Source of the DNA: Acidobacteriota bacterium
GTDB lineage: Bacteria; Acidobacteriota; Terriglobia; Acidiferrales; UBA7541
DNA: 38,659 nt
Direction: 5' to 3'
Assembly (NCBI GenBank): GCA_003224525.1
Contig: QHZB01000233.1
Span: 1 to 38,659, forward strand
The position numbers and the translations under genes are program-made. Of this stretch, positions 4,484 to 38,551 are shown piece by piece (position 1 is the first letter of the stretch; every line of letters begins with the position of its first letter). The notes beneath the pieces were generated by a model, which saw only the letters and a program-made list of their open reading frames with translations, was not told the origin of the DNA and ran no database searches.

Positions 4484-4506
4484 GCGCAAAATTGCACACT
4501 TTGCGC
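4484..4506. repeat. Inverted repeat in the gap between the sugar transferase and the epimerase
   Basis: A perfect 7-bp inverted repeat, GCGCAAA ... TTTGCGC with a 9-base spacer, lies in the 248-base gap (4312-4559) between two co-directional minus-strand genes. No T-run follows on either strand, so a regulatory palindrome or an RNA hairpin is as likely as a terminator. I see no gene in the rest of this gap. Confidence 0.35.
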
Positions 4507-4559
4507 GATGTCTCTGATGCAGGCAAGATCCACTCCACTCCGTCGGCGAATTTCGTGGT

Positions 4560-5594: not shown

Positions 5595-5617
5595 GCTTGT
5601 GTTTCCCCCTTGATTTT

Positions 5618-6823: not shown

Positions 6824-6867
6824 GGAAAGATTGTACAGAGTTCCGGCTCTCCGCGGAGCGCGGTCGC

Positions 6868-6987
6868 CTAGTGGTTTTCGGCAGGTTTTTTGAAGATTGG
6901 CGCAGCGGCCCGATTCAGTTCATGGGCGGTTGGTTTCTTTTTTGGCGGCTTCTTGACTTCGCGTTTTCGTGCGTCTTTGTTTCCCAT
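6868..6987 (-). CDS. Small Lys-rich basic protein, 39 residues
   Basis: An ATG-to-TAG frame of 39 codons sits in the gap between the carbamoyltransferase and the next GT4 gene. It starts MGNKDARKREVKKPPKKK and ends IFKKPAENH. The MGNKD start followed by a Lys/Pro run resembles small conserved hypothetical proteins I have seen in bacterial genomes, but I cannot confirm homology here. The peptide is very basic and low in hydrophobic residues, so it would be soluble or nucleic-acid/polyanion binding if made. The upstream ribosome site is weak (ATCGGGC). It is too short to be judged by codon bias alone. Confidence 0.5.
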   Translation of the reverse strand: MGNKDARKREVKKPPKKKPTAHELNRAAAPIFKKPAENH

Positions 6988-7056
6988 GCCCGATAGCTTG
7001 CCACAGTTCGTTAACTCTGGCTAGAGGAAGTGAATTCCAGACTTGACGATCGAAAG

Positions 7057-8805: not shown

Positions 8806-8838
8806 CGCGCGATTTGTCAGTGTACCTCAGCCGGAAGT

Positions 8839-10797: not shown

Positions 10798-10798
10798 G

Positions 10799-11659: not shown

Positions 11660-11662
11660 AAT

Positions 11663-12892: not shown

Positions 12893-13992
12893 TGTTCGCG
12901 CAGGATTTTTTTCAATGATTTGGCGAAGGCCTTGAAGTGAAACTCGTGCTCGGCGCGCTGCCGCCCGCGCGCGCCCATCTCCTTCGCATGCGCCGGGTCC
13001 GCCAGCAGCGCTTCAATGGATGTAGCAAGCTGGATCGTATCGCCGTGCGGCACCAGGTAACCCGTAACGCCGTCCTCGATGATTTCCGGTGCGCCGCCAT
13101 GGGTGCCTCCGATGACTGGTTTGCCGCACGCCATCGCTTCCAGATACACCAGGCCGAATCCTTCGCCCTCGCTGGGCAGAGCGAAGATTTCGCAGGCGGA
13201 GTAGCACGCGGCAAGTTCCGGGTAGTTCATTCCGGTCAAAAAATGCACGTGGCGGTGCACGCCGTTTTTTTCCATGAGATCCTCAAGCCAGCCGCGGTCA
13301 TCGCCTGTTCCCGCCAGGACGAGCTGCAGCTCCGGCCAGCGCGTCAGCAGCCTCGGCAGCGCGGTAATCAGGGTGTCCATGCCCTTGTATCGTTCCGTCG
13401 CCAGCCAGCGTCCCACTGCCAGGATCACGCGTCCCGGAGGAAAATCCGCTGGCAGCGCGGGATGCGAGCCGGGGCTGATCAGCGCTTCGAATTGCGGATC
13501 GAGCGCCCAGGGCAGAACGCGAATCCGTTCGCGCGCGACCCTTTGTTCCGAGGCCACGTGATCGGCGGTATCCCGGCTTGGTGCCAGAACCAGGTTTGCG
13601 TGAAGCAGCGCGCGCCGGCGCAATCCACCCAGCGGTTCCCAGACGTCAATCCCATGCGTGCAGATAATACTCTTCATCCGTGGCGCCACAAACCACATGG
13701 CCTGTACCACGGGTCCTAAATTCGGGTGCGCGGCCAGAACCAGTTTTGCTTTGCGCCGCGCTGCTCGCAGCGCGGTCACCGTGAATCGCCCCTTGGCGCG
13801 GTCGCACCCTGTAAATACAAATTCCCGCCCTCCGAGCGTCATCCGGTGCAGCTCCGGCGAATCATTCAGACTGAGCAGGAGGCAGGCCATGCCGCGGCTG
13901 GAGGCGAATTCGGTGAGCACCGCCGCCAGGTGGCGGCCCGCACGCTGCACCCCGCCGGGTGCGTCCAGTTCGGGAAAGAGGCCAATGAGCAC
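12880..13992 (-). CDS. GT4 family glycosyltransferase, first gene of the glycan cluster
   Basis: 370 residues with GT-B fold signatures: GLFPELDAPGGVQRAGRHLA at the N-terminus, VILAVGRWLATERYKG at the start of the donor domain, LVLAGTGDDRGWLEDL, and the E-x7-E motif EGFGLVYLEAMACGKP followed by GGTHGGAPEII. The donor-domain sequence is close in style to phosphatidylinositol- and polysaccharide-directed GT4 enzymes. It starts with GTG and is the most upstream gene of the minus-strand run that ends at 1868. A clean promoter was not found in the 99 bases upstream, although a TTGACA hexamer is present near 14085 without a matching -10. Confidence 0.9.
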   Translation of the reverse strand: MLIGLFPELDAPGGVQRAGRHLAAVLTEFASSRGMACLLLSLNDSPELHRMTLGGREFVFTGCDRAKGRFTVTALRAARRKAKLVLAAHPNLGPVVQAMWFVAPRMKSIICTHGIDVWEPLGGLRRRALLHANLVLAPSRDTADHVASEQRVARERIRVLPWALDPQFEALISPGSHPALPADFPPGRVILAVGRWLATERYKGMDTLITALPRLLTRWPELQLVLAGTGDDRGWLEDLMEKNGVHRHVHFLTGMNYPELAACYSACEIFALPSEGEGFGLVYLEAMACGKPVIGGTHGGAPEIIEDGVTGYLVPHGDTIQLATSIEALLADPAHAKEMGARGRQRAEHEFHFKAFAKSLKKILREQCES

Positions 13993-14091
13993 GCGGAAAG
14001 TCTGCCAAGTACCGCGAACGATGGCAAGTCGGGATGTATCGCAGCGTCAGGAACGCGGACTAGCCGGCGCGCTCGCTGTCTGTCTAAAGTG

Positions 14092-14958
14092 TCAAAACCG
14101 GCGCGGCTGGAACGGATTTTGAGCTGGGGGGGCCGGCGCGGTGCTGGAAGTGTCCCTTGCGGCCTGAAAGGCCTGTTTCTTTAGCTGCATGTCCCCATCC
14201 ACGTACGCAGTGAATTCGGTTCCTTGCGCGAACACTACGTCTTTGCCGGAAGATAGCGGGAGAACCGCTCCAGTCGAATTGCTTGAGCCGGTGCTCTGCT
14301 GGAAGGAGCGGACCGCAGCCTTCTCGTCGTCCTTCAGACGCACAAAGTTGATACTCAAGGCCAGCGTTCCGCCGTGGCCCATGCGTTTCTTGGGTTCCGC
14401 GTCCGTCACCAAGCCGATGGCCACCGCGCCTTCCGGAATCACCAAAAGGCCATCCACAGTAACCTCTTCCATGACCTTCAGATCCACTACGTCGCCGACG
14501 TGGGCGGTCGCAGAAGAAATGGTTTTGCCGAGTTTCAGGCGAATCGGAGTGCCATTGCGCAGAGTGAAGTCAGAAGCGGAGGGGGGAGCGCTCGGAGCAA
14601 TTTCAGCGCGTCTGGCGGGCGCGTCGTATGGAGTACGCTCTCTCGTGGGCTGCACCGTTTTAGATTGCGGTGCCTTGGCGCCCGGCTTGTCTTTCAACAG
14701 CAGGAGGCTCTCCACCGGGACGTAACCGATCTCGCCCTTGGCGGTGCGCACGCCGAAGTAGCGGTCGTACCGTCCGGTGATCTGTAACTGCTCACCACAC
14801 TGGAGCGTAATGCGCACATCCAGAGTGGTCATGGAACTATAGAGATAGACGTAGTCGCCGGAGCGCGGGCACTCAACGATACCCGCACTCTGAGCTTGGG
14901 CAATTGCTGCCAACACCAGGCAAAGAAATGCGGCCACGTACTTGGCGCTTGATATCAT
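14092..14958 (-). CDS. Exported SH3-like domain protein
   Basis: 288 residues from the ATG at 14958, which has CAGGTGC upstream and gives a clear signal peptide (ISSAKYVAAFLCLVLAAIAQAQS); the frame is open further upstream but without plausible protein. Residues about 25-85 resemble a bacterial SH3 domain: VECPRSGDYVYLYSS, then TLQCGEQLQITGRYDRYFGVRT and GEIGYVPVESLLLL. A Pro/Thr/Arg-rich linker follows. The second half (FTLRNGTPIRLKLGKTISSA ... GDVVDLKVMEEV ... PEGAVAIGLVTDA) resembles a repeated beta domain also seen in secreted Acidobacteriota proteins. No catalytic motif is visible. Likely periplasmic; function unknown. Confidence 0.75.
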   Translation of the reverse strand: MISSAKYVAAFLCLVLAAIAQAQSAGIVECPRSGDYVYLYSSMTTLDVRITLQCGEQLQITGRYDRYFGVRTAKGEIGYVPVESLLLLKDKPGAKAPQSKTVQPTRERTPYDAPARRAEIAPSAPPSASDFTLRNGTPIRLKLGKTISSATAHVGDVVDLKVMEEVTVDGLLVIPEGAVAIGLVTDAEPKKRMGHGGTLALSINFVRLKDDEKAAVRSFQQSTGSSNSTGAVLPLSSGKDVVFAQGTEFTAYVDGDMQLKKQAFQAARDTSSTAPAPPAQNPFQPRRF

Positions 14959-14987
14959 TTTGCACCTGCTGGTCCGAAGGGTAGAAG

Positions 14988-15167
14988 ATGCCACGCTTCT
15001 ATCTAGAGCGTATGATGGTTCTTGCCGACAAGAAATGGAACTCCCGTACTGTGCATAAAGAGATACGGTGGGGAAACAACCTGAAGATCTGCATCCGCAA
15101 CGGCCGCGTCCAAATCCGCGATGAAGCCCACCAGCGAGCGCTGAGCCTGTTTTGTGCCGCGCGATAA
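14988..15167 (+). CDS. Possible small protein, 59 residues
   Basis: An ATG with GAAGGGTAG upstream opens a 59-codon frame between two minus-strand genes, ending in TAA. The product (MPRFYLERMMVLADKKWNSR and on) is basic with a mixed composition, and the second half uses mostly G/C third bases. I recognise no family. The gap of 239 bases would otherwise be empty apart from promoter sequence for the exported SH3 gene, so this could equally be chance. Confidence 0.25.
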   Translation: MPRFYLERMMVLADKKWNSRTVHKEIRWGNNLKICIRNGRVQIRDEAHQRALSLFCAAR

Positions 15168-15197
15168 CCCCGGACGACAAATGCAACGAAGGTCTGT

Positions 15198-15869
15198 TCA
15201 TTGGCGGCCATTCATAAGGAGAGGGACGAGATCCGTGAGCCGGTTGAGATAAATATCCGCGGGGAATGCGGCGCGGTCGTGCGTGCCGAAGCCATAATTT
15301 ACGGCGGCAACGAGAGTGCCGGCGTTGCGGGCGGCCTGTACGTCGACTTCGGAATCGCCGATCAGCATGGCTTCGGCGGAGGCGACGCCAAATTCGCGAA
15401 GAATCGTCCGGGCGCCGAGCGGGTCGGGCTTTTTTGTTTCAAAGCTGTTGCCGCCATAGACGGCGCGAAAATATTTCGCCAGGCCGAGTTCTTCCAATAT
15501 GCGCATGCTGACGCGCACCGGCTTGTTCGTCAGGACGGCCATCGGGAACGCGGCGAGATGCTCGAGCGCTTCCGGAACTCCTGGGTACGCGCACGTCGAA
15601 TCCAATTTGTGATCTTCGTAGTACGCAAGAAAAAATTTCAGCGCGCGCTGGCATTCGTTCTCGGCGGCGCCGCTGCCCAAAGCGCGGCCAACAAGTTGCG
15701 GCGCGCCGTGGCCGATAAAGCTGGAGATGGTGTCTTCGTGCAGTTGCTCGCGGCCCATTTCCTCCAGCATGGCGTGGACGGAGCGGATCAAATCGCGGCG
15801 AGAATCGATGAGCGTGCCATCCAGATCGAAAATCAGAGCGCGCACGGAAGAAAAATTCGGGGCGATCAT
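15198..15869 (-). CDS. HAD-superfamily phosphatase, phosphoglycolate-phosphatase-like
   Basis: The motif I loop FDLDGTLIDS carries the nucleophile and acid/base Asp pair. Motif II is TNKP in PMAVLTNKPVRVS, the motif III Lys is in SFETKKPDP, and motif IV is MLIGDSEVDVQAARNAG. The helical cap between motifs I and II is of the C1 type used by Gph, PGM-like and pyrophosphatase PpaX enzymes. The likely reaction is dephosphorylation of a small phosphorylated metabolite such as 2-phosphoglycolate. I used the Met codon at 15869, which places 11 residues before the FDLDGT motif; an upstream ATG at 15908 with a GGATGA site is also possible. It is divergent from the DUF1015 gene. Confidence 0.85.
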   Translation of the reverse strand: MIAPNFSSVRALIFDLDGTLIDSRRDLIRSVHAMLEEMGREQLHEDTISSFIGHGAPQLVGRALGSGAAENECQRALKFFLAYYEDHKLDSTCAYPGVPEALEHLAAFPMAVLTNKPVRVSMRILEELGLAKYFRAVYGGNSFETKKPDPLGARTILREFGVASAEAMLIGDSEVDVQAARNAGTLVAAVNYGFGTHDRAAFPADIYLNRLTDLVPLLMNGRQ

Positions 15870-16034
15870 GAACCAATAATTGTAATATGACCGCACTGTT
15901 TTCAACATTCATCCATCTCTGGTCAAATGGTCAAATGTCCATTGAAAATTAACCTTTTGCCTTTTTCGGAATGCCGGCGTGTTCGCGTAAACTAGAAGAC
16001 TTTGCAGGCGGCACAAAGCGATTCCGGAGAGCCC

Positions 16035-26164: not shown

Positions 26165-26515
26165 TCAGGGTTGCAGGCCGCCGATATCGCGCAAGCGGTC
26201 AAAAGCACGCCGCCCATGAGGAATGGTGGTCGAGCCGCCAACGATCAGCGCCACGTTTAGAGCGTCGATCAGTTCCTCGCGCTTCCAGCCTTCCTCGCCG
26301 CCGCGAACCAGGTGGTAAGTGAAGCAGTCATCGCATCGCAGCACGGCGGAAGCGACCACCCCGAGTAATTCCTTGTTCTTGGTGCCGAGCGGGCCGGGTT
26401 CGTAGGCCTGGTGGTCGAGAGCGAAGAAACGGTTGATGCCGAGGTGGCCGCAACCGAGGATTTCCTCGTTTAGGTCGGTGCGAAACTTCTGAAAATCTTC
26501 CAGGCGATCGGCCAT
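26165..26515 (-). CDS. Carboxymuconolactone-decarboxylase family protein (AhpD-like)
   Basis: 116 residues from ATG 26515 with a strong GGAGGAACC site. The redox motif RCDDCFTYHLV gives Cys61, Cys64 and His68, the CxxCxxxH arrangement used by AhpD-type peroxidase partners. ALNVALIVGGSTTIPHG is the conserved second helix. Both cysteines are present, so a thiol-redox role is more likely than decarboxylation. It is the first gene after the terminator of the ABC transporter operon. Confidence 0.88.
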   Translation of the reverse strand: MADRLEDFQKFRTDLNEEILGCGHLGINRFFALDHQAYEPGPLGTKNKELLGVVASAVLRCDDCFTYHLVRGGEEGWKREELIDALNVALIVGGSTTIPHGRRAFDRLRDIGGLQP

Positions 26516-26570
26516 GGTTCCTCCGGATGATGAAGCAATCGAACACACCGATGGTGCCAGCTTTATGAAC

Positions 26571-26605
26571 CAAAACTTTCCGCAACGCTCTGCCTCAGCG
26601 GAAAG
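26571..26605 (-). terminator. Intrinsic terminator of the ABC transporter operon
   Basis: CTTTCCGC and GCGGAAAG form a perfect 8-bp stem around 14 bases, followed on the minus strand by TTTTGG. It begins 7 bases after the stop of the last permease gene. Confidence 0.6.
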
Positions 26606-26611
26606 AAGACA

Positions 26612-27445
26612 CTAGGCGTCCTGCTGCAGTCGTTCGAGAAGTTCCTGAGCATCGGAGCCGAGGCCTCGGGTACGCACGCGGTACCAGATGACGATGAGGG
26701 CGACGGAGACGGCAAAGATCAGCGTGGAGACGGCGTTGATCTCGGGAGTGATGCCACGGCGGAGGCGGCCCCAGATTTCGAGCGGCAAAGTATTGTCGCG
26801 GCCGATCAGGAAAAAGCTGACGGCGATCTCGTCCATGGACAGCGTGAAGATGAGCAGGCCGGCGGCGATCAGCGAGAGCTTGAGATTCGGAAGAGTGACT
26901 CGCCAGAAAGTTTGCCAGGGCGTCGCGCCGAGGTCGAGGGAGGCTTCTTCCTGAGCGTGGTCCATTTTTTGCAGGCCAGCGAAGAGCTCGGTGGTAGCAA
27001 CAGAAATGAGCGCGGTGCCGTGGCCAAGAAAAACGGTGAGCAGGCTGAGCTGGGCCCCGGCAAAGACAGCGAACATGAGCAGGGAGAGGCCGGTGATGAT
27101 GCCGGGAAGAATCAACGGCAAGAGAACGAGGCGGCGGAAGAGAGCTTTTCCGGGGAAGGTGGCGCGGTCGAGCGCGAGCGCGGCCAGCAGCCCGAGGGTC
27201 AGCGAGAGTGCCACGCTGCCTGCGGCGACGATCAGGCTGTTCCCGACGGCATCCCAGATCGGGGCGTCGGCAAAAAGTAGGCGGTACCATTCGAGCGTGA
27301 GATGGCGGGGAGGGAAACCGCCGACGCCGTCACGGTTGAAAGAGTAAAGCATGAGAACGGCGACCGGCAGATAGATAAAGATGAAGACGAGCACGGAATA
27401 AATGGTGAGCAGCGGAGCGCGCCGGGTTGGAGTGTGGCCGCTCAT
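26612..27445 (-). CDS. potC: ABC transporter permease, spermidine/putrescine type (PotC-like)
   Basis: 277 residues with six hydrophobic segments and the cytoplasmic EAA loop around EEASLDLGATPWQTFWRVTL PN. The N-terminal segment LTIYSVLVFIFIYLPVAVLM and VGGFPPRHLTLEWYRLLF are typical of PotC. The ATG at 27445 overlaps the stop of the partner permease by ATGA, so translation is coupled; an in-frame codon at 27514 would extend into the partner gene. It is the last gene of the operon. Confidence 0.9.
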   Translation of the reverse strand: MSGHTPTRRAPLLTIYSVLVFIFIYLPVAVLMLYSFNRDGVGGFPPRHLTLEWYRLLFADAPIWDAVGNSLIVAAGSVALSLTLGLLAALALDRATFPGKALFRRLVLLPLILPGIITGLSLLMFAVFAGAQLSLLTVFLGHGTALISVATTELFAGLQKMDHAQEEASLDLGATPWQTFWRVTLPNLKLSLIAAGLLIFTLSMDEIAVSFFLIGRDNTLPLEIWGRLRRGITPEINAVSTLIFAVSVALIVIWYRVRTRGLGSDAQELLERLQQDA

Positions 27446-28287
27446 TTGAAGGACCACCGCTTTTCGAGCCGCTCGCTGAGGAAAAGCAAGGAGATGGTAA
27501 TGATCAGGATGCAAACGGAAATCGCGGCGCCGAGCGGCAAATCATAGGCCGCGCCGAAGAGGCTCTGTACCACGTTGGCGATCATCGTGCCGGAAGCGCC
27601 GCCGACGAGAAGGGGCGCGAGGAAATCGCCGAGAGAGAGAACGAAGGCGAACGTTGCGCCGGCGAGCAGACCGGGAATGGAAAGAGGCAGGATGACGCGC
27701 AGAAAAGTTTGAACCGATCCGGCGCCGAGGTCGTGCGAGGCTTCGACAAGCGGGCGAGGGATGTGTTCGAGTGCTGCGTAGATCGGCAGAAAAACAAAAG
27801 GTGTGTAGATGTGCGTGAGCATGAGAACGACGGCGAAAGGGCTGTAGAGAAGGAACGCGACGGGCGCATGCGTGAAATGCAGGTATTGCATGAAGCCATT
27901 GAGGACGCCTTCGCTGCCGAGAATCGTTTTCCAGGCATAGCCGCGGACTAGGTAGCTCACCCACAACGGCACGATGACGAGCTGGTAGAGCAGCTCCTTG
28001 CGAGCACGGGCATGAAACGACAGGTAATAGGCCAGCGGGTAGCCGAGCAACAGGGAGCACAGCGTCACCGAAGCGGCGATGCGCATGGTGCGCAGGAGGA
28101 CTCCGAGGTAGACGGGCTTGGAAAAGAGAGTCACATAATTGTGCAGGTTCCACTGGTGGACCAGGACTCCTTCGTGGACGGCCCAGAAGCTGTGCGCGAA
28201 CATCAGCGCGTAGGGAAGCAGGAGGAACAAGCCGACCCAGAGGAGCGGTGGGAGAGAGACGAGCGTTTTGTAGGCGCGCGAGTACAT
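27442..28287 (-). CDS. potB: ABC transporter permease, spermidine/putrescine type (PotB-like)
   Basis: 281 residues, six membrane segments. WVGLFLLLPYALMFAHSFW is the PotB-like first segment, and the EAA loop reads VEASHDLGAGSVQTFLRVIL. Forms the channel with the PotC-like subunit and docks the ATPase. It starts 17 bases after the ATPase gene ends and overlaps the next permease by four bases. Confidence 0.9.
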   Translation of the reverse strand: MYSRAYKTLVSLPPLLWVGLFLLLPYALMFAHSFWAVHEGVLVHQWNLHNYVTLFSKPVYLGVLLRTMRIAASVTLCSLLLGYPLAYYLSFHARARKELLYQLVIVPLWVSYLVRGYAWKTILGSEGVLNGFMQYLHFTHAPVAFLLYSPFAVVLMLTHIYTPFVFLPIYAALEHIPRPLVEASHDLGAGSVQTFLRVILPLSIPGLLAGATFAFVLSLGDFLAPLLVGGASGTMIANVVQSLFGAAYDLPLGAAISVCILIITISLLFLSERLEKRWSFK

Positions 28288-28304
28288 GGCAGCGATAAGG
28301 GCGA

Positions 28305-29384
28305 TTACTCCTGGACGCGGATGGCCTCCGCGGCCGAGAAAACAAATTCGTGTTCACCGGAGAGTGGTCCACGTGCGGGAATGCGCACGCGCAAGAGCTG
28401 GCCTCCGCCGCAATCCACTTCGAGCAATTCACTCGCGCCGCTAAAGAACTGCTGCTGAAGTGCGGCGCGGAAGCGCGCGGTTCCCGGAGGAGCCACAGCA
28501 TCGGAGGCGAGACGGATGGCCTCTGGGCGCAACGAGAAAATGGCGGCACCACTTGGGCCGTCCGTGGGCCACTGCAGTGCTCCACACTTGGCCCTGCCAT
28601 CCAGAATCTCACCGCGCAATAAATTTGTCTGGCCGATGAACTGAGCGGTGTACGCTGTAGCGGGATGCGCGTAGATCTCGCGGGGAGAGGCGACTTGCTC
28701 CAGCGCGCCATTGCGCAATAGCGCAATGCGGTCGGAGAGCGCCATGGCTTCTTCCTGATCGTGGGTGACAAAAAGAAAAGTGATGCCGAGTTCGCGTTGC
28801 AGGGCTTTCAATTCGCTTTGCATCTGCTTGCGCAGATTGGCGTCCAGCGCGGAAAGCGGCTCGTCGAGCAGGAGAAGCAAAGGGCGATTGACGATCGCGC
28901 GCGAGAGGGCGACGCGTTGCTGCTGGCCGCCGCTTAACTTGGACGGACGCGAAGCCGCGAATTCCTGCATCTTCACCATGCGCAGCGATTCATCGACGCG
29001 GCCGCCGATCTCCGTTGCAGAAGTTTTCTGGACGCGCAAGCCGTAGGCGACGTTTTCTCGCACACTCAGGTGCGGGAACAGCGCGTAGTGCTGGAACACG
29101 GTGTTCACGCGGCGCTTGTAAGCGGGAAGGGTGTCCAGCCGCTGGCCGCGCATCCAGATTTCTCCCGCGCTGGGTTGCTCGAATCCTGCGACCAGGCGAA
29201 GAACAGTGGTTTTGCCGGAACCGCTCTCGCCGAGCAGGGTGAGGAATTCTCCCGAGGCGATGTTTAACGAGATGTTTTTCAGCACCTCCCGCGCGCCGAA
29301 GCGCTTGGCCACACCGCGCAGCTCGAGGAGTGCTTCCCGCGCGGCCGAGACCTGGTGCTGCGGGTTGGCAGCGGCGGAGCTCAC
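28305..29384 (-). CDS. potA: ABC transporter ATP-binding protein, spermidine/putrescine type (PotA-like)
   Basis: 359 residues with every ATPase motif: Walker [10 protein letters not shown] at 52-60, Q-loop near [15 protein letters not shown], signature [15 protein letters not shown], Walker [14 protein letters not shown], and H-loop [13 protein letters not shown]. The C-terminal 120 residues are a TOBE-like regulatory part ([12 protein letters not shown]). Start is GTG, overlapping the stop of the binding-protein gene as GTGA. Confidence 0.93.
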
Positions 29385-30442
29385 TGAGCGGCTTTCACCT
29401 CGTTCCAGATTTCGTTGTACTTCGCGCGGCGAGGAACGTCCTGCCAGAAATAGATCCGCTGCATGTAGGCATCGGGGTTATCGAGGTGCAGGCCTTTGAT
29501 TTCGTCAGGAGTTAGAAACTGTGACGCCCTGGGATTTGCGGGGGTGTAGTGCGTCCTATCGGTGATCAGTTTCTGGGTTTTCGGTTCGATCATGTATTCG
29601 AGAAAGTCGTGCGCCAATTCCTTGTGGCTGCTCGCGGAGGTGATCATCAGGTGGTCGATCCAGCCGGTGGTATTTTCTTTGGGGATGGTCTCTGCGATGG
29701 GGAAATTCAACTTGCGAAGGTCATTGGTGTTCAGCGGCCAGCCCATGGCCAGAACCACTTCGTGGTTCTGGAAGAGGTTGGTAAGTTCTCCGCCGGTGGC
29801 CCAGATCTTTCGAATGTTGGGCTTCAGTTCGATCAGTTTGTTCCTGACGGCGGCGAGCTGATTGTCCGTCAGATTGTAAAGTTGCGACGGGTCCGGCTTG
29901 TCGAAACCGAGGATTTGCGCCGCGAGGTAGACGGTGGAAAGATCATCCCACACGGAAATTTTGCCTTTGTATTTCTGGTCCCAGAGGATCGCCCAAGTAT
30001 CCGGGGGTTGCGCAAAGACAGTGGTGTCATAGAGAAGGGGATTCGGCCCCCACATGAAAGGGACGCCGTAGACCTGGCCGTCGGTTTTGACAAGAGGAAG
30101 GTCCCGGAGTTTGCTGGAGAGCTGCCCGTAGGACGGCAACTTTGAAAGGTCGAGGGGCGCGGCGAGGCCGGTGCGCGCAATGGAGGCGGCGACGTCGCTG
30201 GAAGGTGAGATTACGTCGTAATTCGAAGCGCTGCCGCCCCGAAGTTTCGCGACGAGTTCATCGCTGGAGCCCATAAAAGACGCGACTACTTTGCAGTGAT
30301 GGCTTTCTTCGAACGCGCGTAGGAAGGAATCGTCGGAATAACCTTCCCAGACCAGCAGGCTTAGCGCTTCTTCTTTTTTCTTACAAGCGCTGCATGCCAA
30401 TGCGAGCGTCAGAATTGCCAGAAGAATGGCGCGAGGTCTCAT
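29381..30442 (-). CDS. potD: Spermidine/putrescine-type periplasmic binding lipoprotein (PotD/PotF-like)
   Basis: 353 residues. A signal peptide ([19 protein letters not shown]) ends in a lipobox-like Cys (17 or 20), followed by KKKEE, so it is probably a lipoprotein. [20 protein letters not shown] and [19 protein letters not shown] match the PotD/PotF start; [15 protein letters not shown] and [20 protein letters not shown] are later family blocks. Binds polyamine-like cations in known relatives; the exact ligand here is unknown. Strong ribosome site GGGAGGAGCA. Starts 12 bases after the amidohydrolase gene stops. Confidence 0.9.
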
Positions 30443-30454
30443 TGCTCCTCCCGG

Positions 30455-32173
30455 TTACTTTGTATCCGCTTGATAGACCACCCGCCCGCCGACAATGGTG
30501 GTGACAACTTTTGTCGCATCAATCTTATGTGGATTTACGTCGAAGATATTCTGCGAAAGGATGATCAGGTCGGCAAGCTTGCCGATCTCGAGCGAGCCTT
30601 CCGATTTTTCGCGGCGGCCGGCAAACGCCGCTCCGAGCGTGTAACCCTCAATTGCCTCCGCCACGGTCAATCGCTGCTCGGGGACAAAACCCGCTTCAGG
30701 TTTACCTTCAGACGTTTGGCGAGTCACCGCGGTCTGAACCCCTTCCCACGGATTGAGAGTCACGACAGGCCAATCGCTGCCGAAGGCCAGGCGGCCTCCT
30801 GCATCAGAGATGCTCTTCCAGGCCCAGGCACGAGAAGCGCGATCGGGGCCGGCATTCCGCGCCCAGACTTCCAGCGTGTCGGAATCCGGGTAAGAATGGA
30901 GCGGCTGCATGCTGGCGACAACCCCGAGCTTGCTGAATCGCGGAATGTCGGACGCGGCGATGGTTTCAATGTGTTCGACGCGCGGCCGGCGATCGCCCTT
31001 GTGGTTCCGCGTTACGGCGTTTTCATAGGCATCCAGCGCCGTCCGCACGCCGTAGTCGCCGATGGCATGCGTCAAAAGCTGCAAACCGTGCTTGTCCAAT
31101 TCCGCAACCGCCGCCTTGTAGTTAGCGGGCTCCCAGAAGAGCTTGCCTTTCAAAGAGGGATCGTCGCTGTATGGCTCGAGCATCGCGGCGGTGTGCGATT
31201 CGACCACGCCATCCACCATAAATTTGACGGCGTCGGCGTCGATCCAGTCGTCGTGGAATTTCTTGCGGGCATGGTCGATAGCATCGAGGTCCCGAGGACG
31301 GAGTTCCGGCGGATTGAGGAAGTAAGCGATATACATGCGCACGCTCAGGTCGCCGCGATGGCGCATTTCGTCGAAGAGATCGAGCGCTTCGAAATCCTGT
31401 CCGGCGCTGTGGACGCGAGTGATGCCGTGTTCGTTGGCCCATTTCATGCCTGCGCGCAGCGCCAAAAGCTGTTCGACGCGAGACGGTTTTGGAATAATCT
31501 TGGCGACCAGGCCCTGAGCTGACTCTTTTAGCGCACCTGTCGCTTCACCCGTTTTGGGGTCGCGAACAATCGTGCCGTTTGGCGGATCCGGAGTATCGCG
31601 GGTGATCCCGGCCAGAACGAGAGCCTTCGAGTTTGCCCAGTAGGTATGCCCGTCGTAACCTTCGAGGAAAACCGGGCGACTGGGGAAGATTTCATCCAAA
31701 TATTTCTTGTGCGGGAGCGCCTCGGGACCGAACATAGCGTAATTCCAGCCACGGCCAAGGATCCAGTCGTCCCCAGGACGTTGAGCGGCATACTCCCGCA
31801 ATCGTTTTTGAATGTCGGCGGGATCCTTAGAGCCCTCGAGATTCACGCGCCCCAGACTGAGGGAGCCATCCAGGAAATGAACGTGGCAGTCGACAATGCC
31901 CGGAAGCACAAGCTTTCCGCCGGCGTTGATGACCTTGGTACCCATGCCGCGCCGGCGCTCAATTTCGGGATCGTCTCCAACGGCAACGATTTTTCCGCGG
32001 TAAATCGCCACGGCTTGAGCCCATGGCTGCTTGGGATTTTCGGTGTAAACGTGTCCGTGAACGACGATGATGTCCGCCGGTTCTACGATCCGGCCTTGCG
32101 CGCGAGTGAAGGCGGCGACACAGAGCAAGAGCAGAAGAGTTTGAAGAAAGAGGCGAAGCGTGCGAGTTTTCAT
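30455..32173 (-). CDS. Exported amidohydrolase, YtcJ-like (amidohydrolase family 3)
   Basis: 572 residues from ATG 32173, which has AGGTGCCG upstream. A signal peptide (TLRLFLQTLLLLLCVAAFTRA) puts it outside the cytoplasm. The metal site is complete: VDCHVHF (HxH), AVKFMVDGVVESHTA (Lys that is carbamylated in relatives), LLTHAIGDYG (His), RVEHIETI (His) and AFGSDWPV (Asp). Relatives hydrolyse N-substituted amides and formamides. Being between a regulator and a polyamine-type importer, it may free the imported amine from an acylated form; this is inference. Confidence 0.88.
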   Translation of the reverse strand: MKTRTLRLFLQTLLLLLCVAAFTRAQGRIVEPADIIVVHGHVYTENPKQPWAQAVAIYRGKIVAVGDDPEIERRRGMGTKVINAGGKLVLPGIVDCHVHFLDGSLSLGRVNLEGSKDPADIQKRLREYAAQRPGDDWILGRGWNYAMFGPEALPHKKYLDEIFPSRPVFLEGYDGHTYWANSKALVLAGITRDTPDPPNGTIVRDPKTGEATGALKESAQGLVAKIIPKPSRVEQLLALRAGMKWANEHGITRVHSAGQDFEALDLFDEMRHRGDLSVRMYIAYFLNPPELRPRDLDAIDHARKKFHDDWIDADAVKFMVDGVVESHTAAMLEPYSDDPSLKGKLFWEPANYKAAVAELDKHGLQLLTHAIGDYGVRTALDAYENAVTRNHKGDRRPRVEHIETIAASDIPRFSKLGVVASMQPLHSYPDSDTLEVWARNAGPDRASRAWAWKSISDAGGRLAFGSDWPVVTLNPWEGVQTAVTRQTSEGKPEAGFVPEQRLTVAEAIEGYTLGAAFAGRREKSEGSLEIGKLADLIILSQNIFDVNPHKIDATKVVTTIVGGRVVYQADTK

Positions 32174-32192
32174 CGGCACCTAGTCCTGAGAA

Positions 32193-33023
32193 TCAGAATG
32201 TTGGCGGCGTGTTGATCCACAGCAGCCAGGTTTCCGTACGGCCGGGATTGTTCCAGCGGTGCGGAGTCGAACTCTCAAAATAGAGACTATCGCCGGGCTT
32301 TAGATGATAATGCTCCTTGGCGTCGAGCCAGATCTCAAAATTTCCGCGAAGGACGTGCAGGAATTCTTCGCCTTCATGCGAGTAGGATGCACCGCTGCCG
32401 CCCCCGGGTTTGATGCGGAAAAGGTGCGGCTCCATCGCGGTGTTCCCCCAGGCAAGCAGCTCCATGCGCACGCCTGGCGTGGTCTCCAGGACTTTTCGCT
32501 GATGTGGGCGCACAAGACGCGGATTATCGCCGGCGGTTTCGAAGAGTGAAAGAATGTTGGTGCGGTAGAAGCGGGCGATGCGGCGCAGCGTGGCAATCGA
32601 GCAGCGCATCCGGCCTCTCTCGAGGGCGCTCAGAAAACCGACGGAGACCCCCGTGGCGCGAGCCACTTGAGCGAGTGAAAGGCCGCGGCGGGTCCGCAGG
32701 CGGCGGAAACGTTGTCCGGGAAGGAGCGTGCTCTCCGCAGGAGCAGAGACGATTCCCTGGCGCTTGAGCACGTGGACGATGGCGGCGGGATTGAGGCCGC
32801 GGGCCCGGCGCAGGAAAATCGCGCGCTGCAGCAGGCGCACATCGGATTCGTTAAAAAGGCGGTAGCGGCTCCGCGTGCGCTGCGGCGAGACGAGGCCCAA
32901 GGCTTCCCAGGCGCGCAAAGCGGAGGAAGAAATGCCCACGCGGCGCGCCACTTCGCTGATGCGCAACGTGCGCGGCGGTTTGCGTGCCGCCGATGTGTCG
33001 GATAAATTCTTTGTGCTTGACAC
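32193..33023 (-). CDS. MerR-XRE-cupin three-domain transcriptional regulator
   Basis: 276 residues, three domains in order. Residues 20-88 are a MerR-type winged helix (LRISEVARRVGISSSALRAW, YRLFNESDVRLLQRA). Residues 104-162 are an XRE helix-turn-helix (LRTRRGLSLAQVARATGVSV, SALERGRMRCSI). Residues 197-274 are a cupin_2 sensor (SHEGEEFLHVLRGNFEIWLD, LKPGDSLYFESSTPHRWNN) with His216, Glu220 and His255 as likely metal ligands. XRE-cupin proteins such as PuuR repress putrescine-use genes, which fits the neighbours; the extra MerR domain is the unusual part. GTG start, GGGACCG upstream. Divergent from the TonB receptor. Confidence 0.88.
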   Translation of the reverse strand: MSSTKNLSDTSAARKPPRTLRISEVARRVGISSSALRAWEALGLVSPQRTRSRYRLFNESDVRLLQRAIFLRRARGLNPAAIVHVLKRQGIVSAPAESTLLPGQRFRRLRTRRGLSLAQVARATGVSVGFLSALERGRMRCSIATLRRIARFYRTNILSLFETAGDNPRLVRPHQRKVLETTPGVRMELLAWGNTAMEPHLFRIKPGGGSGASYSHEGEEFLHVLRGNFEIWLDAKEHYHLKPGDSLYFESSTPHRWNNPGRTETWLLWINTPPTF

Positions 33024-33051
33024 CGGTCCCGGCCTTCTCTAAGTTTACAGG

Positions 33052-33080
33052 ATTATAGTAAGGTTTCAGGAGCACAGCAA
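33052..33080 (-). promoter_or_regulatory. Sigma70-like promoter of the regulator/ABC operon
   Basis: On the minus strand TTGCTG (33075-33080) and a perfect TATAAT (33052-33057) are separated by 17 bases. The start of RNA would be near 33045, leaving a leader of about 20 bases before the GTG at 33023. The -35 is weak (three of six), which suits a regulated promoter. Confidence 0.5.
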
Positions 33081-33129
33081 CCTCGAAGAATTGGTCCTCG
33101 AAAGATTCTTCGCGGCAAGGGGTGAGGGG

Positions 33130-36100
33130 ATGAAGGTTGACGCGCAATTCCGGCAACTGCGTTCGTGGTGTTGCCGCAGCATCTCATTCGCAATCGTTTT
33201 GGCGATGGCATTCTGCCTCGCAGTGCCGTTTGCCGGCGCGCAGAGCACCGGCGGCCGCATCCGCGGCACGGTGGTGGATCCCAGTGGCGGAGCGGTGACC
33301 GCCGCTAACGTTAACCTCCGAAATGAAGCGACCGGCGGCGAGCGCACAGCCCAATCCAGCGCGACGGGTGAATATGTGTTTCTTGAAGTTCCCGTCGGCA
33401 CTTACACAGTGGAGCTTCAGCTAACTGGATTCAAGAAGTACCTGCGCAAGGGTGTCACCCTCGAACTGAACCAAATTCTGACACTCGACATTACTCTCCA
33501 AATTGGCGGCTCGACGGAAGTGGTGGAAGTCACTGGCGCACCTCCCGTGGTGGATACGACCTCGACGCAGCTCGGGGCGGTGGTGAACGAGCGCGCGGTG
33601 AGCCAATTGCCGCTCAACGCTCGCGATACCTACCAACTGCTGCAATTGCAGCCCGGAGTCCAGGGCGTTGGAGGATCAGATCTTTTCTACGGGAGCAATC
33701 AGTCGGGCGCCGTTTCTGTCAATGGAGGCCGTGGGCGCTCCAACAATTTCAACGTCAACGGCGGCGATGGTAACGATCTGTTTGTAAACTCCCCGGGAAT
33801 TCAGCCGACTCCCGACAGCATCGCGGAATTCCGCGTCCTGACCAATACGTTCGATGCCGAATACGGGCGCAACTCTGGTGCTGTCATCAACGTGGTCACC
33901 AAGTCGGGAACCAACAATCTCCATGGCAACGTCTACGAATTCCTGCGCAACCAATTATTCAATGCCAAGGGCTACCTCGATCTGCGGCGGCCCGATGACA
34001 AGCAAAACCAGTTCGGCGGAACGTTTGGCGGTCCTATCAAGAAAGATCGGACCTTCTTCTTCGCGTCTTATGAAGGACGCCGCGTGGTCCACGGAATCTC
34101 CTCCGATCCCGTCGTGGTTCCGACAGCTGCTGAGCGAAACGGAGACTTCTCGGCTACGCCATTCGATCCCAGCGCCACCATTCAGGATCAGTTGGTTGCT
34201 GACGTCTTCAATGCCCGGTGTAATCTCGGCGCCTCGGTAGGCGACGCCTACGGTACACTTTTTCCGGGAAGCATAATTCCGTCGAACTGCCTGGACCCGG
34301 TCGCAGTTGACCTTATGAAACGCTACGTCCCCTGTCCTAACGCGGACCCCAAGTGCTCCAATCTCACGCCAGGTGGCGCCAATGTCTTCCAATCCATTCC
34401 CAATGAGAGTTCGCACGCCAACCAGTTCACCATGAAACTGGACCACCGGATCAACGAGAAGCAGAATCTGAGCATCTACTACTACTTCAACGACTCGTTC
34501 GACGCGCAACCGTTCACAAGATTCCAGGCAGCTACCCCGAATCTGCTTGAGGGATTCGGCAACAACAACGCCACCCGCGCGCAGCAGATTAACGTTTCCC
34601 ATGCATGGACCATCAACTCCAGCGTCGTGAACGAATTAAGGCTTAGCTATTTCCGCGAGGCGCAAGGCACATTCCTTCATCCGCAACACACCAACCTGGT
34701 GACCGATTCCTGTAGTTCCGCGGTGGCTCCGATCTGCTTCACCGGCACCACTGACGTACCTGGTGTCATCCCATCCGACCCAAAGATCGGGATCACGCCA
34801 GGTCTCGGCCCCAAGCGGGAAGGTATGCCGTTCATCTCCATTTCTGGCGGATTTACCATTGGCAACGACTTCGAAGGCGAGTTGCCGCAAAAGGGAAACA
34901 CCTATCAGCTCAGCGACAGCTTGACCAAAGTAATGGGCAACCACACCACCAAGTTCGGCGTGGATCTCAGAAATCAACGCTTCTTCCAAACGTTGTTCTT
35001 TGACCCCAACGGTGATTACAGCTACTTCGGCGGCGGTTTAAACGACCCGATCGCCCTCGACGTCAATGGAAACCAGAACCTGTTTCCCAACTATTTACTG
35101 GGTCTTCCAGATTCGTATTTGCAGGGGTCAGCCCAAAGTGAGGACGTTCGTGGCAACTCGATCTACCTGTTTGCGCAAGATAGCTGGAAAATCCGGCGAA
35201 CTCTGACCCTCAACTATGGATTGCGTTGGGAATACAACCAACCGCTCTACGATGCGGGGTTGCGCTACCAAACTTTCAGGCCGGGGCAGGCTACGACGAC
35301 CTATCCCTGCCAACTCACGGCGGCAAGCCAGGCAAACCTCGGATATCCTGATACCAACTGCAACCCCGGCGGTTCAGCTGCGGCGGTATTCCCGCTGGGC
35401 CTGGTCGTCCCCGGGGACAAAGGTGTTCCGAAAGGGCTCACCGACAATTACTACAAGTCTTTTGCTCCTCGTATTGGAATTGCCTGGGATCCCAAGGGAG
35501 ATGGTAAGACCACCGTCCGCGGCGGATGGGGACTCTTCTACAACCCGATCGAGCAACTTGTGCTCGAGCAATTCCAGGCTGAGCCGCCCTTCGGTGGTAG
35601 CTCGCTCCTATCCGAAGGCCTGTTCAACACCCCTTTTGTTCTTCAAGATGGAACCGTGGCGCCCAATCCCTTTAACGGGGTTCTTACTCCGCTGCACGGA
35701 ACCCCGACCGACTGGTCCGCCTTCCGTCCCATCCTGCTGTTTGGGGAACTTGAACCCAAACTGCGCTCGCAGTACACCGCGCAGTATAACTTCGGGATCC
35801 AGCATCAGCTGACAAAGGACATGGTGCTCTCTGTTGGTTACGTGGGCTCACAGGGACACCGCCTGCTCGCTACCCACGACATCAATTTTGGAAACGCGCA
35901 GACCTGCATCGACATGCAGAATATTTCGGATTACTACACAAACGTCGCGCCGAACGCGGGCTTGGCTTCCGATTATGCCTGCGGGCCGTTCTTCGCTGAC
36001 AGTTCTTTCTTCCTGCCTGCGGGTTCGGTACCTGCAGGCTTCACGGTACACCTCCCGTACGGCTCGGTTCCGACCATCGGTCCTGGTAATCCGGATACCA

Positions 36101-36939
36101 CCTTGGTCGGCTTGCGTCGGTTCAGTTCGCCGATTTGCGAGCCCACCACGGGAGTCGGCTGCCCCTCCGATGGCGTCCCGGTATTTTCCAGCATCTTTGC
36201 CCAAGACACAGTCGCGAACTCGAATTACAACTCGTTGCAAGCTTCGCTGGAGAAGAGAATGAGCCATGGCTTGCAGTTTGAGTTGGCCTACACCTTCAGC
36301 AAGTCCATCGACAACGCCTCCAGCTTTGAGAGCATCCTGAGACCGATTTGCGACCGTTGTAATCGCGCGCTCTCTCTCTTTGACGCGCGGCACCGGTTCG
36401 TGCTCAGCTACCTTTGGTCGCTTCCGGTGCCCGAATATCAGGGTGCGAAGGGCAAGGTCCTGAACGGATGGCAGGTTTCGGGCATTACTACTCTTCAGAC
36501 CGGTTTCCCAATTCGACTGGAGTCGAGCAACGACTCGGAACTGGAAAACAGCTTTGACTTCGAACTGCCTGGTAAACCGGATCTAATTGCCCCATTCCGC
36601 ACGTTTGATCCCAGAACCCACGGAGGCCTCTACTTTGATCCCAATTCCTTCGCTCTCCCCGTCCAGGATTTCAATTCGACACCACTACAGTTGTTGGGCA
36701 ACGCGCCGCGGACCATCTGCTGCGGACCGGGGATTTCTAACTTCGATTTCTCAGTGCAGAAGGTCACACGCATGGGAGAAAAAATGCACCTTGAGTTCCG
36801 CGCCGAGTTTTTTAACATCTTTAATCATACCCAGTTTCTGAACCCAGACGGCAGCATCACCGACGGAGCGGATTTCGGCCGCGTCAAGCGCACTCGAGAG
36901 CCGCGGCAGGTGCAGTTCGCACTGAAGCTGTTCTTCTAG
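33130..36939 (+). CDS. TonB-dependent receptor with carboxypeptidase-regulatory-like domain (Oar-like)
   Basis: 1,269 residues from ATG 33130 with GGTGAGGGG upstream. A signal peptide (SFAIVLAMAFCLAVPFAGAQS) is followed by a carboxypeptidase-regulatory-like beta domain (RIRGTVVDPSGGAVTAANVN to about residue 105), then a TonB plug (GAVVNERAVSQLPLNARDT, PDSIAEFRVLTNTFDAEYGR) and a barrel ending QVQFALKLFF, a terminal Phe as in outer-membrane proteins. The mid-barrel segment KFGVDLRNQRFFQTLFF and NYNSLQASLEKRMSHGLQFE are typical of the Acidobacteriota Oar/SusC-like class. No SusD partner is present. It is divergent from the regulator, so both may be controlled from the same 106-base gap. Confidence 0.92.
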   Translation: MKVDAQFRQLRSWCCRSISFAIVLAMAFCLAVPFAGAQSTGGRIRGTVVDPSGGAVTAANVNLRNEATGGERTAQSSATGEYVFLEVPVGTYTVELQLTGFKKYLRKGVTLELNQILTLDITLQIGGSTEVVEVTGAPPVVDTTSTQLGAVVNERAVSQLPLNARDTYQLLQLQPGVQGVGGSDLFYGSNQSGAVSVNGGRGRSNNFNVNGGDGNDLFVNSPGIQPTPDSIAEFRVLTNTFDAEYGRNSGAVINVVTKSGTNNLHGNVYEFLRNQLFNAKGYLDLRRPDDKQNQFGGTFGGPIKKDRTFFFASYEGRRVVHGISSDPVVVPTAAERNGDFSATPFDPSATIQDQLVADVFNARCNLGASVGDAYGTLFPGSIIPSNCLDPVAVDLMKRYVPCPNADPKCSNLTPGGANVFQSIPNESSHANQFTMKLDHRINEKQNLSIYYYFNDSFDAQPFTRFQAATPNLLEGFGNNNATRAQQINVSHAWTINSSVVNELRLSYFREAQGTFLHPQHTNLVTDSCSSAVAPICFTGTTDVPGVIPSDPKIGITPGLGPKREGMPFISISGGFTIGNDFEGELPQKGNTYQLSDSLTKVMGNHTTKFGVDLRNQRFFQTLFFDPNGDYSYFGGGLNDPIALDVNGNQNLFPNYLLGLPDSYLQGSAQSEDVRGNSIYLFAQDSWKIRRTLTLNYGLRWEYNQPLYDAGLRYQTFRPGQATTTYPCQLTAASQANLGYPDTNCNPGGSAAAVFPLGLVVPGDKGVPKGLTDNYYKSFAPRIGIAWDPKGDGKTTVRGGWGLFYNPIEQLVLEQFQAEPPFGGSSLLSEGLFNTPFVLQDGTVAPNPFNGVLTPLHGTPTDWSAFRPILLFGELEPKLRSQYTAQYNFGIQHQLTKDMVLSVGYVGSQGHRLLATHDINFGNAQTCIDMQNISDYYTNVAPNAGLASDYACGPFFADSSFFLPAGSVPAGFTVHLPYGSVPTIGPGNPDTTLVGLRRFSSPICEPTTGVGCPSDGVPVFSSIFAQDTVANSNYNSLQASLEKRMSHGLQFELAYTFSKSIDNASSFESILRPICDRCNRALSLFDARHRFVLSYLWSLPVPEYQGAKGKVLNGWQVSGITTLQTGFPIRLESSNDSELENSFDFELPGKPDLIAPFRTFDPRTHGGLYFDPNSFALPVQDFNSTPLQLLGNAPRTICCGPGISNFDFSVQKVTRMGEKMHLEFRAEFFNIFNHTQFLNPDGSITDGADFGRVKRTREPRQVQFALKLFF

Positions 36940-37168: not shown

Positions 37169-38551
37169 ATGCACGACGCACTACAGAAGGAAATCGCCAC
37201 CTACGAAAAGCGCACGCCGAAATCGGCAGTCGCCCACAAGCGTGCTCTGGAACGCATCCCGCTCGGGGTTGCGAGCAATTACCGCCATTACGAACCATAT
37301 CCGCTCTTCGTGAAGGATGGAAAGGGCAGCCGGATTCACGACGTCGACGGCAACGAGTACATCGACCACAACCTGTGTTTCGGCGCGCTGATGGCGGGGC
37401 ATTGCCATCCCGCCGTCGTGAAAGCCGTCGAACAAAAGCTGCATGAAGGAACAACCTTCGGGATGCCGCACGAGCAGGAATGGGAGCTTGCAGAGGAAAT
37501 TTGTAAGCGTTATCCGGTGGATATGGTGCGGTTCGGTTCCAGCGGAACGGAAGTCACGATGCACGCCTGCCGCATCGCGCGCGCCGCCACGGGCCGCGAC
37601 AAGATTCTGAAGTTCGAAGGCGCGTACCACGGCCTGCATGACAACGCGCTCGTCAGCGTCAAGCCCAATGCCGAAGACTACGGTGATCCAGAGGCTCCCA
37701 ATTCCGTTCCCGGGGGCGGTGGCGTGCCGAAGGCTTCGCTCGAGAATGTTGTCGTCGCCAGCTTCAACAACCTGAGGAGTGTCGAGAATCGTTTTAAGCA
37801 GTATCCTGGCCAGATCGCTGCGATCATTCTCGAACCCATCCTCATGAACGTCGGACTGTGCATGCCGCAGCCCGGTTTCTTGCAGGGCCTGCGCGACATC
37901 TGCACAAAAAACGGCGCGTTGCTGATCTTCGACGAAGTGAAAACGGGCGCGAAGCTGGCCTGGGGCGGCGCTAGCGAATTTTTCGGCGTGAATCCGGACA
38001 TGATCTGCCTGGCAAAGTCCATCGGCGGCGGCTTGCCGCTGGGAGCATTCGGCGCGAGCCGCGCGGTAATGGATCTGATCTCGCAGCACAAGGTCTTCCA
38101 CGGCGGCACCTACAACACGAACCGTGTGGCCATGGCTGCGGGCCTGGCGACGTTCCGCGAAGTCCTCACGCGCGAGAATTATGCGCACGTCGGCAAGCTC
38201 GGCAAAAATCTCACCGAAGGCTATCGCGCCATCGTCAAGAAATCCGGCCTGCAAGCCTACGTCGCCAGCGCCGGCGTCAACGGCACCTTGATGCTCTATC
38301 CGAAGGAGATTCAGAACTACCGCGACTGGACCAAGATCGACGTCGATCTCTGGCGGCACTACTGGTTCGCCATGGTCAATCGCGGCGTACTCGCGCAGCC
38401 CTATTGGTGGGACGAGCAGTGGACCATCTCCGTTCAGCACACGGAAGCCGACATTGACAAGCACCTCGCCGTTTTTGAAGAAATCGCGCCGGCGCTCAGG
38501 AAGGCACAGCAAGAGCGAGGCCTGGCATTTGTGGGCGCAGCCGGACATTAG
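37169..38551 (+). CDS. Class III PLP aminotransferase, glutamate-1-semialdehyde aminomutase-like
   Basis: 460 residues. Motifs in order: IHDVDGNEYIDHNLCFGALM near the N-terminus, RFGSSGTEVTMHACRIARAA (PLP phosphate site), KFEGAYHGLHD, LLIFDEVKTG (the Asp that holds the PLP ring), and ICLAKSIGGGLPLGAFG with the PLP lysine at residue 283. The sequence resembles GSAM but is about 30 residues longer than the usual hemL product and is not near other tetrapyrrole genes, so amine or amino-acid transamination is likelier. A probable permease gene follows 34 bases later. Confidence 0.85.
   Translation: MHDALQKEIATYEKRTPKSAVAHKRALERIPLGVASNYRHYEPYPLFVKDGKGSRIHDVDGNEYIDHNLCFGALMAGHCHPAVVKAVEQKLHEGTTFGMPHEQEWELAEEICKRYPVDMVRFGSSGTEVTMHACRIARAATGRDKILKFEGAYHGLHDNALVSVKPNAEDYGDPEAPNSVPGGGGVPKASLENVVVASFNNLRSVENRFKQYPGQIAAIILEPILMNVGLCMPQPGFLQGLRDICTKNGALLIFDEVKTGAKLAWGGASEFFGVNPDMICLAKSIGGGLPLGAFGASRAVMDLISQHKVFHGGTYNTNRVAMAAGLATFREVLTRENYAHVGKLGKNLTEGYRAIVKKSGLQAYVASAGVNGTLMLYPKEIQNYRDWTKIDVDLWRHYWFAMVNRGVLAQPYWWDEQWTISVQHTEADIDKHLAVFEEIAPALRKAQQERGLAFVGAAGH

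Follow-up and report, generated by a model that had tools for sequence, protein, structure and literature searches.

A six-gene operon on the minus strand of an acidobacterial contig appears to form the uptake half of a divergent cluster, under local control, that acquires and catabolises amines, most likely putrescine-type polyamines, a reading we put at roughly 55%. The operon occupies positions 26612-33023 of the window, the 38,659-nt stretch of Acidobacteriota DNA (GCA_003224525.1, QHZB01000233.1) that was analysed and that forms contig C450 of a 6.47 Mb genome in 516 contigs. It encodes a regulator (REG), an exported YtcJ-like amidohydrolase (AH), a solute-binding protein (SBP), and the ATPase and two permeases of an ATP-binding cassette (ABC) importer. 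A sequence-only reading had taken these genes for a candidate uptake operon for acylated amines, and had suggested hydrolysis outside the membrane before import. The importer is indeed present, but its operon makes up only half of the cluster, to which an aminotransferase, an aldehyde dehydrogenase (ALDH), a 4-aminobutyrate (GABA) transaminase and an APC permease belong as well. The core of the cluster is larger and more ordinary, amine uptake plus catabolism, than that reading held.

The six-gene operon itself is real. REG (32193-33023) is followed by AH (30455-32173), SBP (29381-30442, with an N-terminus that resembles a lipobox by eye), the PotA-like ATPase (28305-29384), the PotB-like permease B (27442-28287) and the PotC-like permease C (26612-27445), whose ATG start, read from the sequence, overlaps the stop of permease B. 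All six genes are present in one direction, on a strand that the sequence-only reading left unnamed, and the coordinates agree with the spacing it gave, no gap exceeding 19 bases and some genes overlapping (19, 12, -4, 17 and -4 nt from REG to permease C). Pfam and NCBIfam agree with its family names, and the arrangement is not a product of chance, because gene order is conserved in relatives. The promoter it proposed is borne out by conservation: the -10 box TATAAT (33052-33057, minus strand) sits in a block that is near-identical in 20/20 upstream regions aligned from the window and 19 relatives. A generic promoter scan of the window did not list this box. The hairpin/U-tract terminator fared less well. 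A weak hairpin does lie past the last permease gene (26578-26603, minus strand) and is shortly followed by UUUU, but it has only these four U, its stretch folds no better than chance (z -1.0; 30/200 shuffles equally good), and a terminator scan covering loops of 3-8 did not list it.

Relatives share a single layout in which GabT, ALDH, the APC permease, a class III aminotransferase (AT3) and an Oar-like outer-membrane protein (OAR) diverge from REG, an optional AH, SBP, the ATPase and the two permeases. Among 61 genomes searched with SBP (E <=0.001) and with AH, 32 match SBP, 28 through an orthologue of at least 72% identity and four through weak matches of 23-29%; 27 of the orthologue-bearing genomes, the window's own included, fall in its genus, and the 28th belongs to the same family. 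When named genomes were scanned with SBP, 168 stretches matched, of which 155 encode a relative, and the best 80 of these 155 were taken as named loci. SBP is present in them by construction, and the counts below refer to visible loci, those whose contig reaches far enough for the gene in question to show. Nearly all of the best 80 are titled Acidobacteria or acidobacterial groups. One (L094, CAJCHZ010000027.1) is titled Betaproteobacteria; it carries the acidobacterial cluster at 74-89% identity (51% for OAR) and is probably a mislabelled bin.

The order on which the sequence-only reading depended is kept across these loci. On the importer side the ATPase is found in 72/73 visible loci, permease B in 63/64 and permease C in 62/63; on the divergent side OAR is found in 56/57, AT3 in 48/48 and the APC permease in 47/48. 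REG adjoins the transporter in 71/76. Its five misses comprise two loci in which AH runs to the contig start (L139, L152), two that keep the operator box described below and have no recognised REG (L120, L150), and one with neither (L089). AH fills its slot in 23/78. A set of 36 genomes of the window's genus, own genome included, was not picked via the importer, and several of its members are incomplete; 16/36 have orthologues of both SBP and AH (AH at >=50% identity), 11 of SBP only, three of AH only (G007, G012 and G027, the G012 contig ending inside AH) and six of neither. These counts describe a stable core and an optional AH. The amidohydrolase-potD pair is kept in relatives, but its first member is optional.

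Individual loci depart from the layout. L089 (G017, also L041), which lacks REG and OAR, has AT3 directly adjoining the divergent AH and transporter. L138 has lost the ATPase and permease genes that follow SBP elsewhere, and an agmatinase/ureohydrolase-like protein (by eye; 11127-11954) lies next to SBP on the opposite strand. In L093 (G029, also L044), mutation or assembly error has broken both AH and REG into two frames each.

The divergent half begins on the plus strand with OAR (33130-36939), which joins a carboxypeptidase-regulatory domain to a beta barrel (PF25183 691.2 bits and PF13620 67.8 bits, scored on frame 33091-36939). AT3 (37169-38551, plus strand; PF00202 226 bits) is an aminotransferase of the GSAM/GntE kind, and the window's contig ends after it. 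AT3 was also considered as the genome's HemL and ruled out, with a separate HemL over cut-off (605.9 bits) on contig C170. In the relative used as reference for cluster proteins (G022), the AT3 strand continues with the APC permease, ALDH, GabT and succinate-semialdehyde dehydrogenase (SSADH). Upstream stretches were fetched from 15 genomes, one of them gene-called and all 15 scanned for cluster proteins only; AT3, APC, ALDH and GabT occur in this order in 15/15 (GabT is split into two frames in G030), and an SSADH of at least 85% identity stands beside the GabT group in 6/15, G022 included. The reference GabT exceeds its equivalog cut-off (583.4 vs 506.65), as does the reference SSADH (875.1 vs 828). 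The window's own genome encodes APC, ALDH and GabT, at 91, 95 and 90% identity to G022, on bases 1-4203 of contig C321. Because this trio opens C321 and its APC gene is cut by the contig edge at codon 40, C450 very likely runs on into C321.

REG joins an N-terminal MerR helix-turn-helix to an XRE (HTH_3) helix-turn-helix and a C-terminal cupin (MerR_1 59.7, HTH_3 57.7 and Cupin_2 66.5 bits, all over cut-off). PuuR is its best NCBIfam model, at 68.9 bits vs a cut-off of 211, and REG is not an equivalog. Its putative operator is a 25-nt dyad (33041-33065, minus strand) with 8-nt arms and a 9-nt spacer that starts with TATAAT. A relaxed search (14 positions, <=3 mismatches, 210 nt; about 1% chance per region by arithmetic) places this block, approximately AACCTTRC-TATAAT-nnn-GYAARSTT, upstream of REG in 75/75 usable regions, a count that is not one of independent cases, since the loci are related to one another. 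The usable regions come from the window, three loci with AH only (L167, L169 and L170, which also carry the box), G012 and the named loci; 10/85 candidates lacking REG or upstream sequence were left out. A stricter search (27 nt, <=4 mismatches) misses 7/74 relatives (L134, L138, L142, L154, L158, L163 and L166).

The arms of the dyad match perfectly (8/8) in 47/75 regions, at four or five of eight positions in 13/75, and at 6/8 in the window; with the axis displaced by 1-3, the mean falls from 6.8 to 0.2-3.1 matches. Among random 25-mers, 0.5% reach at least six arm matches and 0.008% reach eight. As a hairpin the operator strand folds no better than chance (z -0.96), and we interpret the dyad as a site for protein binding. 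The 27-nt form has one site in the window's genome at <=3 mismatches, and from this sole site REG looks like a single-target, local regulator. With its HTH_3 and cupin domains and a palindrome beside its own gene, REG fits the XRE-cupin type of local regulator and is predicted to act as a repressor. The parts of PMC7901475 drawn on here describe XRE-cupin factors that inhibit neighbouring metabolic genes and bind palindromes; PauR, with 29 genes, is given there as an exception to local inhibition, and PauR and PuuR respond to putrescine (PMC7901475).

The importer set is complete for the spermidine/putrescine type: it comprises SBP, an ATPase and two permeases (best matches YdcS/PotD, PotA, PotB and PotC). 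SBP belongs to SBP_bac_8 and scores 144.7 bits against YdcS (cut-off 725), 100.2 against PotD (582) and 83 against PotF (636); with all three scores below the equivalog cut-offs, it is not filed as any of these proteins. The ATPase reaches 391.2 bits vs 482 for PotA and 344.9 vs 355.6 for TIGR01187, permease B 195.1 bits vs 348 for PotB, and permease C 167.8 bits vs 326 for PotC. By sequence and by fold, the best PDB chain for SBP is 6nlp (E. coli YdcS), followed by PotD and PotF. The SBP structure model is modest (predicted local distance difference test score, pLDDT, 64.5; predicted template modelling score 0.66), with residues 215-260, Trp235 among them, below pLDDT 50. The fold search therefore served family placement only, and the pocket was judged from alignments to PotD.

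Aligned to E. coli PotD, SBP keeps eight residues that we take to be amine contacts: PotD Trp34, Tyr37, Ser83, Asp168, Trp229, Trp255, Asp257 and Tyr293 correspond to SBP Trp32, Tyr35, Ser81, Asp167, Trp235, Trp261, Asp263 and Tyr299. The Asp167 position holds Asp or Glu across 17 aligned rows. Acidic residues thus stand at PotD-like positions of this pocket, but three further positions are replaced: PotD Thr35 has become Glu33 in SBP, Tyr85 Asp83, and Glu171 Thr170 (Thr/Ser). On this alignment the ligand preference may have changed.

The preferred reading joins these parts into one route. The REG cupin would sense the amine or its product and lift repression from the dyad. The amine would enter through the ABC importer, the APC permease or both, and OAR may also be used for entry. 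AT3 and ALDH would convert the amine to GABA or a similar amino acid, which GabT, accompanied by SSADH in some relatives, would pass on towards succinate. AH would be an accessory periplasmic metallo-amidase that frees amines from N-acyl conjugates outside the inner membrane, or may instead release an amino acid that enters this route; in either case it would serve the whole cluster and not the ABC importer alone. An acylated amine is a plausible substrate of AH.

Several observations weigh against this reading. No ABC subunit reaches its curated equivalog cut-off, and the pocket differs from PotD at the Tyr85 and Glu171 positions. AT3 resembles GSAM, GntE and beta-transaminases most closely, and putrescine aminotransferase less; it lies over the GSAM subfamily cut-off (NF000818/PRK00062; 404.9 vs 398 bits) and under that of the HemL equivalog (TIGR00713; 388 vs 527.3 bits), so the first catabolic step may use another amine. 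The reference ALDH belongs to the betaine/aminobutyraldehyde class but lies below its cut-offs, and the APC permease, whose best model is that of a GadC-type antiporter, scores far under the cut-off. That C450 adjoins C321 is deduced from the contig ends. An amine-oxidase-like gene of the flavin adenine dinucleotide (FAD) type, present in 32/56 visible named loci, yields only three weak matches when its orthologue is sought in the window's genome. AH is missing from 55/78 visible named loci and is therefore dispensable for the cluster. The chemical identity of the amine is the main doubt, given the kinds of AT3 and APC permease.

That doubt gives the best-surviving alternative its force. The substrate may be a beta-amino acid, 5-aminovalerate, GABA or its lactam, or a guanidino compound, with AH opening or deacylating the matching amide, for example turning a lactam into an omega-amino acid. 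AT3 and the APC model fit such a substrate, and GabT, over its cut-off, acts on an omega-amino acid. The SBP family with most of its PotD-like pocket positions and the PuuR-like part of REG point instead to polyamines, and we hold this alternative to be doubtful, though worth keeping in view.

AH is itself a convincing member of its family. It matches PF07969 (Amidohydro_3) with 359.9 bits (cut-off 29.7) over the full profile, 1-472 of 472, within its 572 residues. His97, His99, His176, Lys317, His369, His401 and Asp467 are invariant in 24/24 aligned sequences (the window and 23 relatives at 50-88% identity), and 22/24 begin with a signal-peptide-like segment under a simple hydrophobicity rule, with L088 and L108 just below threshold. 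The AH model has a pLDDT of 84.4, and its nearest solved folds are those of two uncharacterised archaeal hydrolases (3icj and 3igh). According to the available portions of a preprint, BwBSH1, a secreted enzyme of the Amidohydro_3 family, cleaves taurocholate; its predicted metal ligands are four His, an Asp and a carboxylated Lys, each alanine mutant is inactive, and a further His, also required, polarises the amide (PMC13081902). The seven AH residues were matched to these six ligands and the catalytic His by motif and order, a correspondence made without direct alignment. The passages available from two YtcJ papers name no substrate (PMC8766522; PMC4899797). Judged from its sequence, AH is likely an active exported amidase, and the exported amidohydrolase that had been noticed in a polyamine-type import operon stands, with an intact predicted metal site and a signal-like start in nearly all relatives.

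AH goes with the cluster more closely than with the importer, as its location, its importer-less copies and its pairwise distances indicate. AH occurs at >=50% identity in 22/61 genomes and lies in this cluster in 21/22; in the remaining genome (G037) some 3.2 kb separate it from GabT-ALDH-APC. ABC genes are absent beside three of the cluster copies: G027 (REG-AH-DAA-CMD), G007 (REG-AH-FAD-CMD) and, in another family, G058 (REG-AH). The search with SBP gave no match in G027 or G058 and a weak one only in G007. Across 13 loci with all six genes, the window included, AH distances track those of REG, the ATPase, permease B and AT3 (r 0.63-0.76). For REG, the ATPase and permease B (r 0.67-0.76), 0/2000 permutations reach the observed value, while the AH-SBP correlation is the lowest of 15 pairs (r 0.45; 2/2000).

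The phylogenetic pattern of AH is one of repeated change. On a regulator tree in which 29/69 inner branches are weakly supported, its state changes at least 13 times. The tree has 73 rows: 11/80 named loci whose REG call was missing or short were left out, and the three AH-only loci and the window were added. The importer changes three times on the same tree, a figure that is not comparable, because the named rows were found via SBP and the importer-less rows were added. Remnants of AH persist in 2/52 AH-less slots (L091, 46 aa at 80%; L128, 29 aa at 59%); L129 gives a marginal third match (E 0.009), and the remaining AH-less slots show none. These two remnants and a truncated copy in G015 mark at least some of the absences as losses.

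These patterns bear on the narrower proposal of the sequence-only reading, a dedicated pair in which AH hydrolyses N-acylated amines in the periplasm specifically to supply the ABC importer with their products. In the window 12 nt separate the AH gene from that of SBP, AH takes up its slot in 23/78 visible named loci, both genes occur in 16/36 genus genomes, and AH distances do follow those of two importer genes, the ATPase and permease B, besides REG. However, the pair itself has the weakest distance correlation, AH stands without importer genes in three genomes, 11/36 genus genomes have an SBP orthologue and no AH orthologue, and AH comes and goes on the regulator tree. The claim that AH specifically feeds the importer gives way on these grounds, and we consider the dedicated pair unlikely.

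A more ambitious version of the preferred reading is also improbable as it stands. The cluster might be an envelope-to-succinate scavenging module for conjugated polyamines, such as plant phenolamides or N-acyl polyamines in soil: OAR would import the conjugates, AH would cut them, the ABC importer and APC permease would take up the amine, and the transaminase route would burn it. A single MerR-XRE-cupin regulator would switch all of it by binding one 25-nt dyad that spans the -10 box of its own gene.

The weakest alternative, that AH is a passenger among many exported amidohydrolases that slipped into the operon with no functional tie, draws on the 38 Amidohydro_3 match rows in the window's genome, the patchiness of AH, its remnants and its truncated copy, but it is very unlikely given that AH orthologues of >=50% sit in the cluster in 21/22 genomes while three inspected paralogues of 42-44% have no cluster neighbours save one partial Oar-like match, that AH evolves in step with the cluster, and that its catalytic residues are invariant.

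Among known systems, the nearest counterpart to the importer is E. coli YdcSTUV, which we take to be accompanied by the aminobutyraldehyde dehydrogenase YdcW. The likeness lies in the nearest SBP by sequence and fold (6nlp), in the Pot-type ATPase and permeases, and in the betaine/aminobutyraldehyde-class ALDH. Unlike YdcSTUV, the acidobacterial cluster adds a MerR-XRE-cupin regulator, an aminotransferase, an APC permease, an Oar-like barrel and an optional exported amidohydrolase, and its SBP is far from the YdcS cut-off (144.7 bits vs 725). PotABCD and PotFGHI share the subunit types and, on the presumed contact list, the eight PotD positions kept in SBP, but differ at PotD Thr35, Tyr85 and Glu171 and in the equivalog cut-offs that the subunits here do not reach.

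The PuuR and PauR clusters, as far as the consulted sections of PMC7901475 describe them, resemble this one in an XRE-cupin regulator beside amine genes, a palindromic site and GabT in the route, whereas REG has an additional N-terminal MerR domain (PMC7901475). No gamma-glutamylation genes were noticed in the loci examined, in which no specific search for them was made. NfdA, a formamide deformylase, and the secreted metallo bile salt hydrolase BwBSH1, again from the preprint portions at hand, share with AH the Pfam family, the matching metal-ligand residues and the catalytic His (PMC13081902). BwBSH1 is also exported, as AH is predicted to be, but it is 945 aa long vs 572 aa, and AH sits in an amine cluster (PMC13081902). 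Literature searched on polyamine transport, YdcS/YdcW, NfdA and Acidobacteria gave no account of the cluster, which does not exclude one elsewhere.

Other genes accompany the cluster. A CMD/AhpD-like protein is encoded downstream of the operon on the same strand (26165-26515; PF02627 43.6 bits on frame 26165-26548); its gene follows the operon in many close relatives, often with other genes between, and its membership of the operon is uncertain. The FAD amine-oxidase-like gene (L046:12045-13592 and orthologues) comes after the permeases, has a twin-arginine-like start and shows a weak similarity to spermidine dehydrogenase. Whether or not they have AH, several close relatives carry a second amidohydrolase with a signal-like start (L046:13654-15360 and orthologues; Amidohydro_3, D-aminoacylase-like by eye). 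A gene of 605-612 aa found downstream in many relatives was dropped as a cluster member, since its sequence looks like that of a translational GTPase (by eye of the TypA/BipA kind). Elsewhere in the window, a minus-strand run at 3259-15908 resembles a surface-glycan cluster, with glycosyltransferase-, carbamoyltransferase- and asparagine-synthase-like genes by eye.

Acidobacteria are common soil bacteria, and to our knowledge their nitrogen diets are poorly known. The cluster offers a testable amine diet for them. The loci with AH and importer, with importer alone and with AH alone form a natural experiment on the role of AH, and they provide a lead toward the substrate of a YtcJ-like enzyme. 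The MerR-XRE-cupin regulator gains a predicted operator and a predicted class of inducer.

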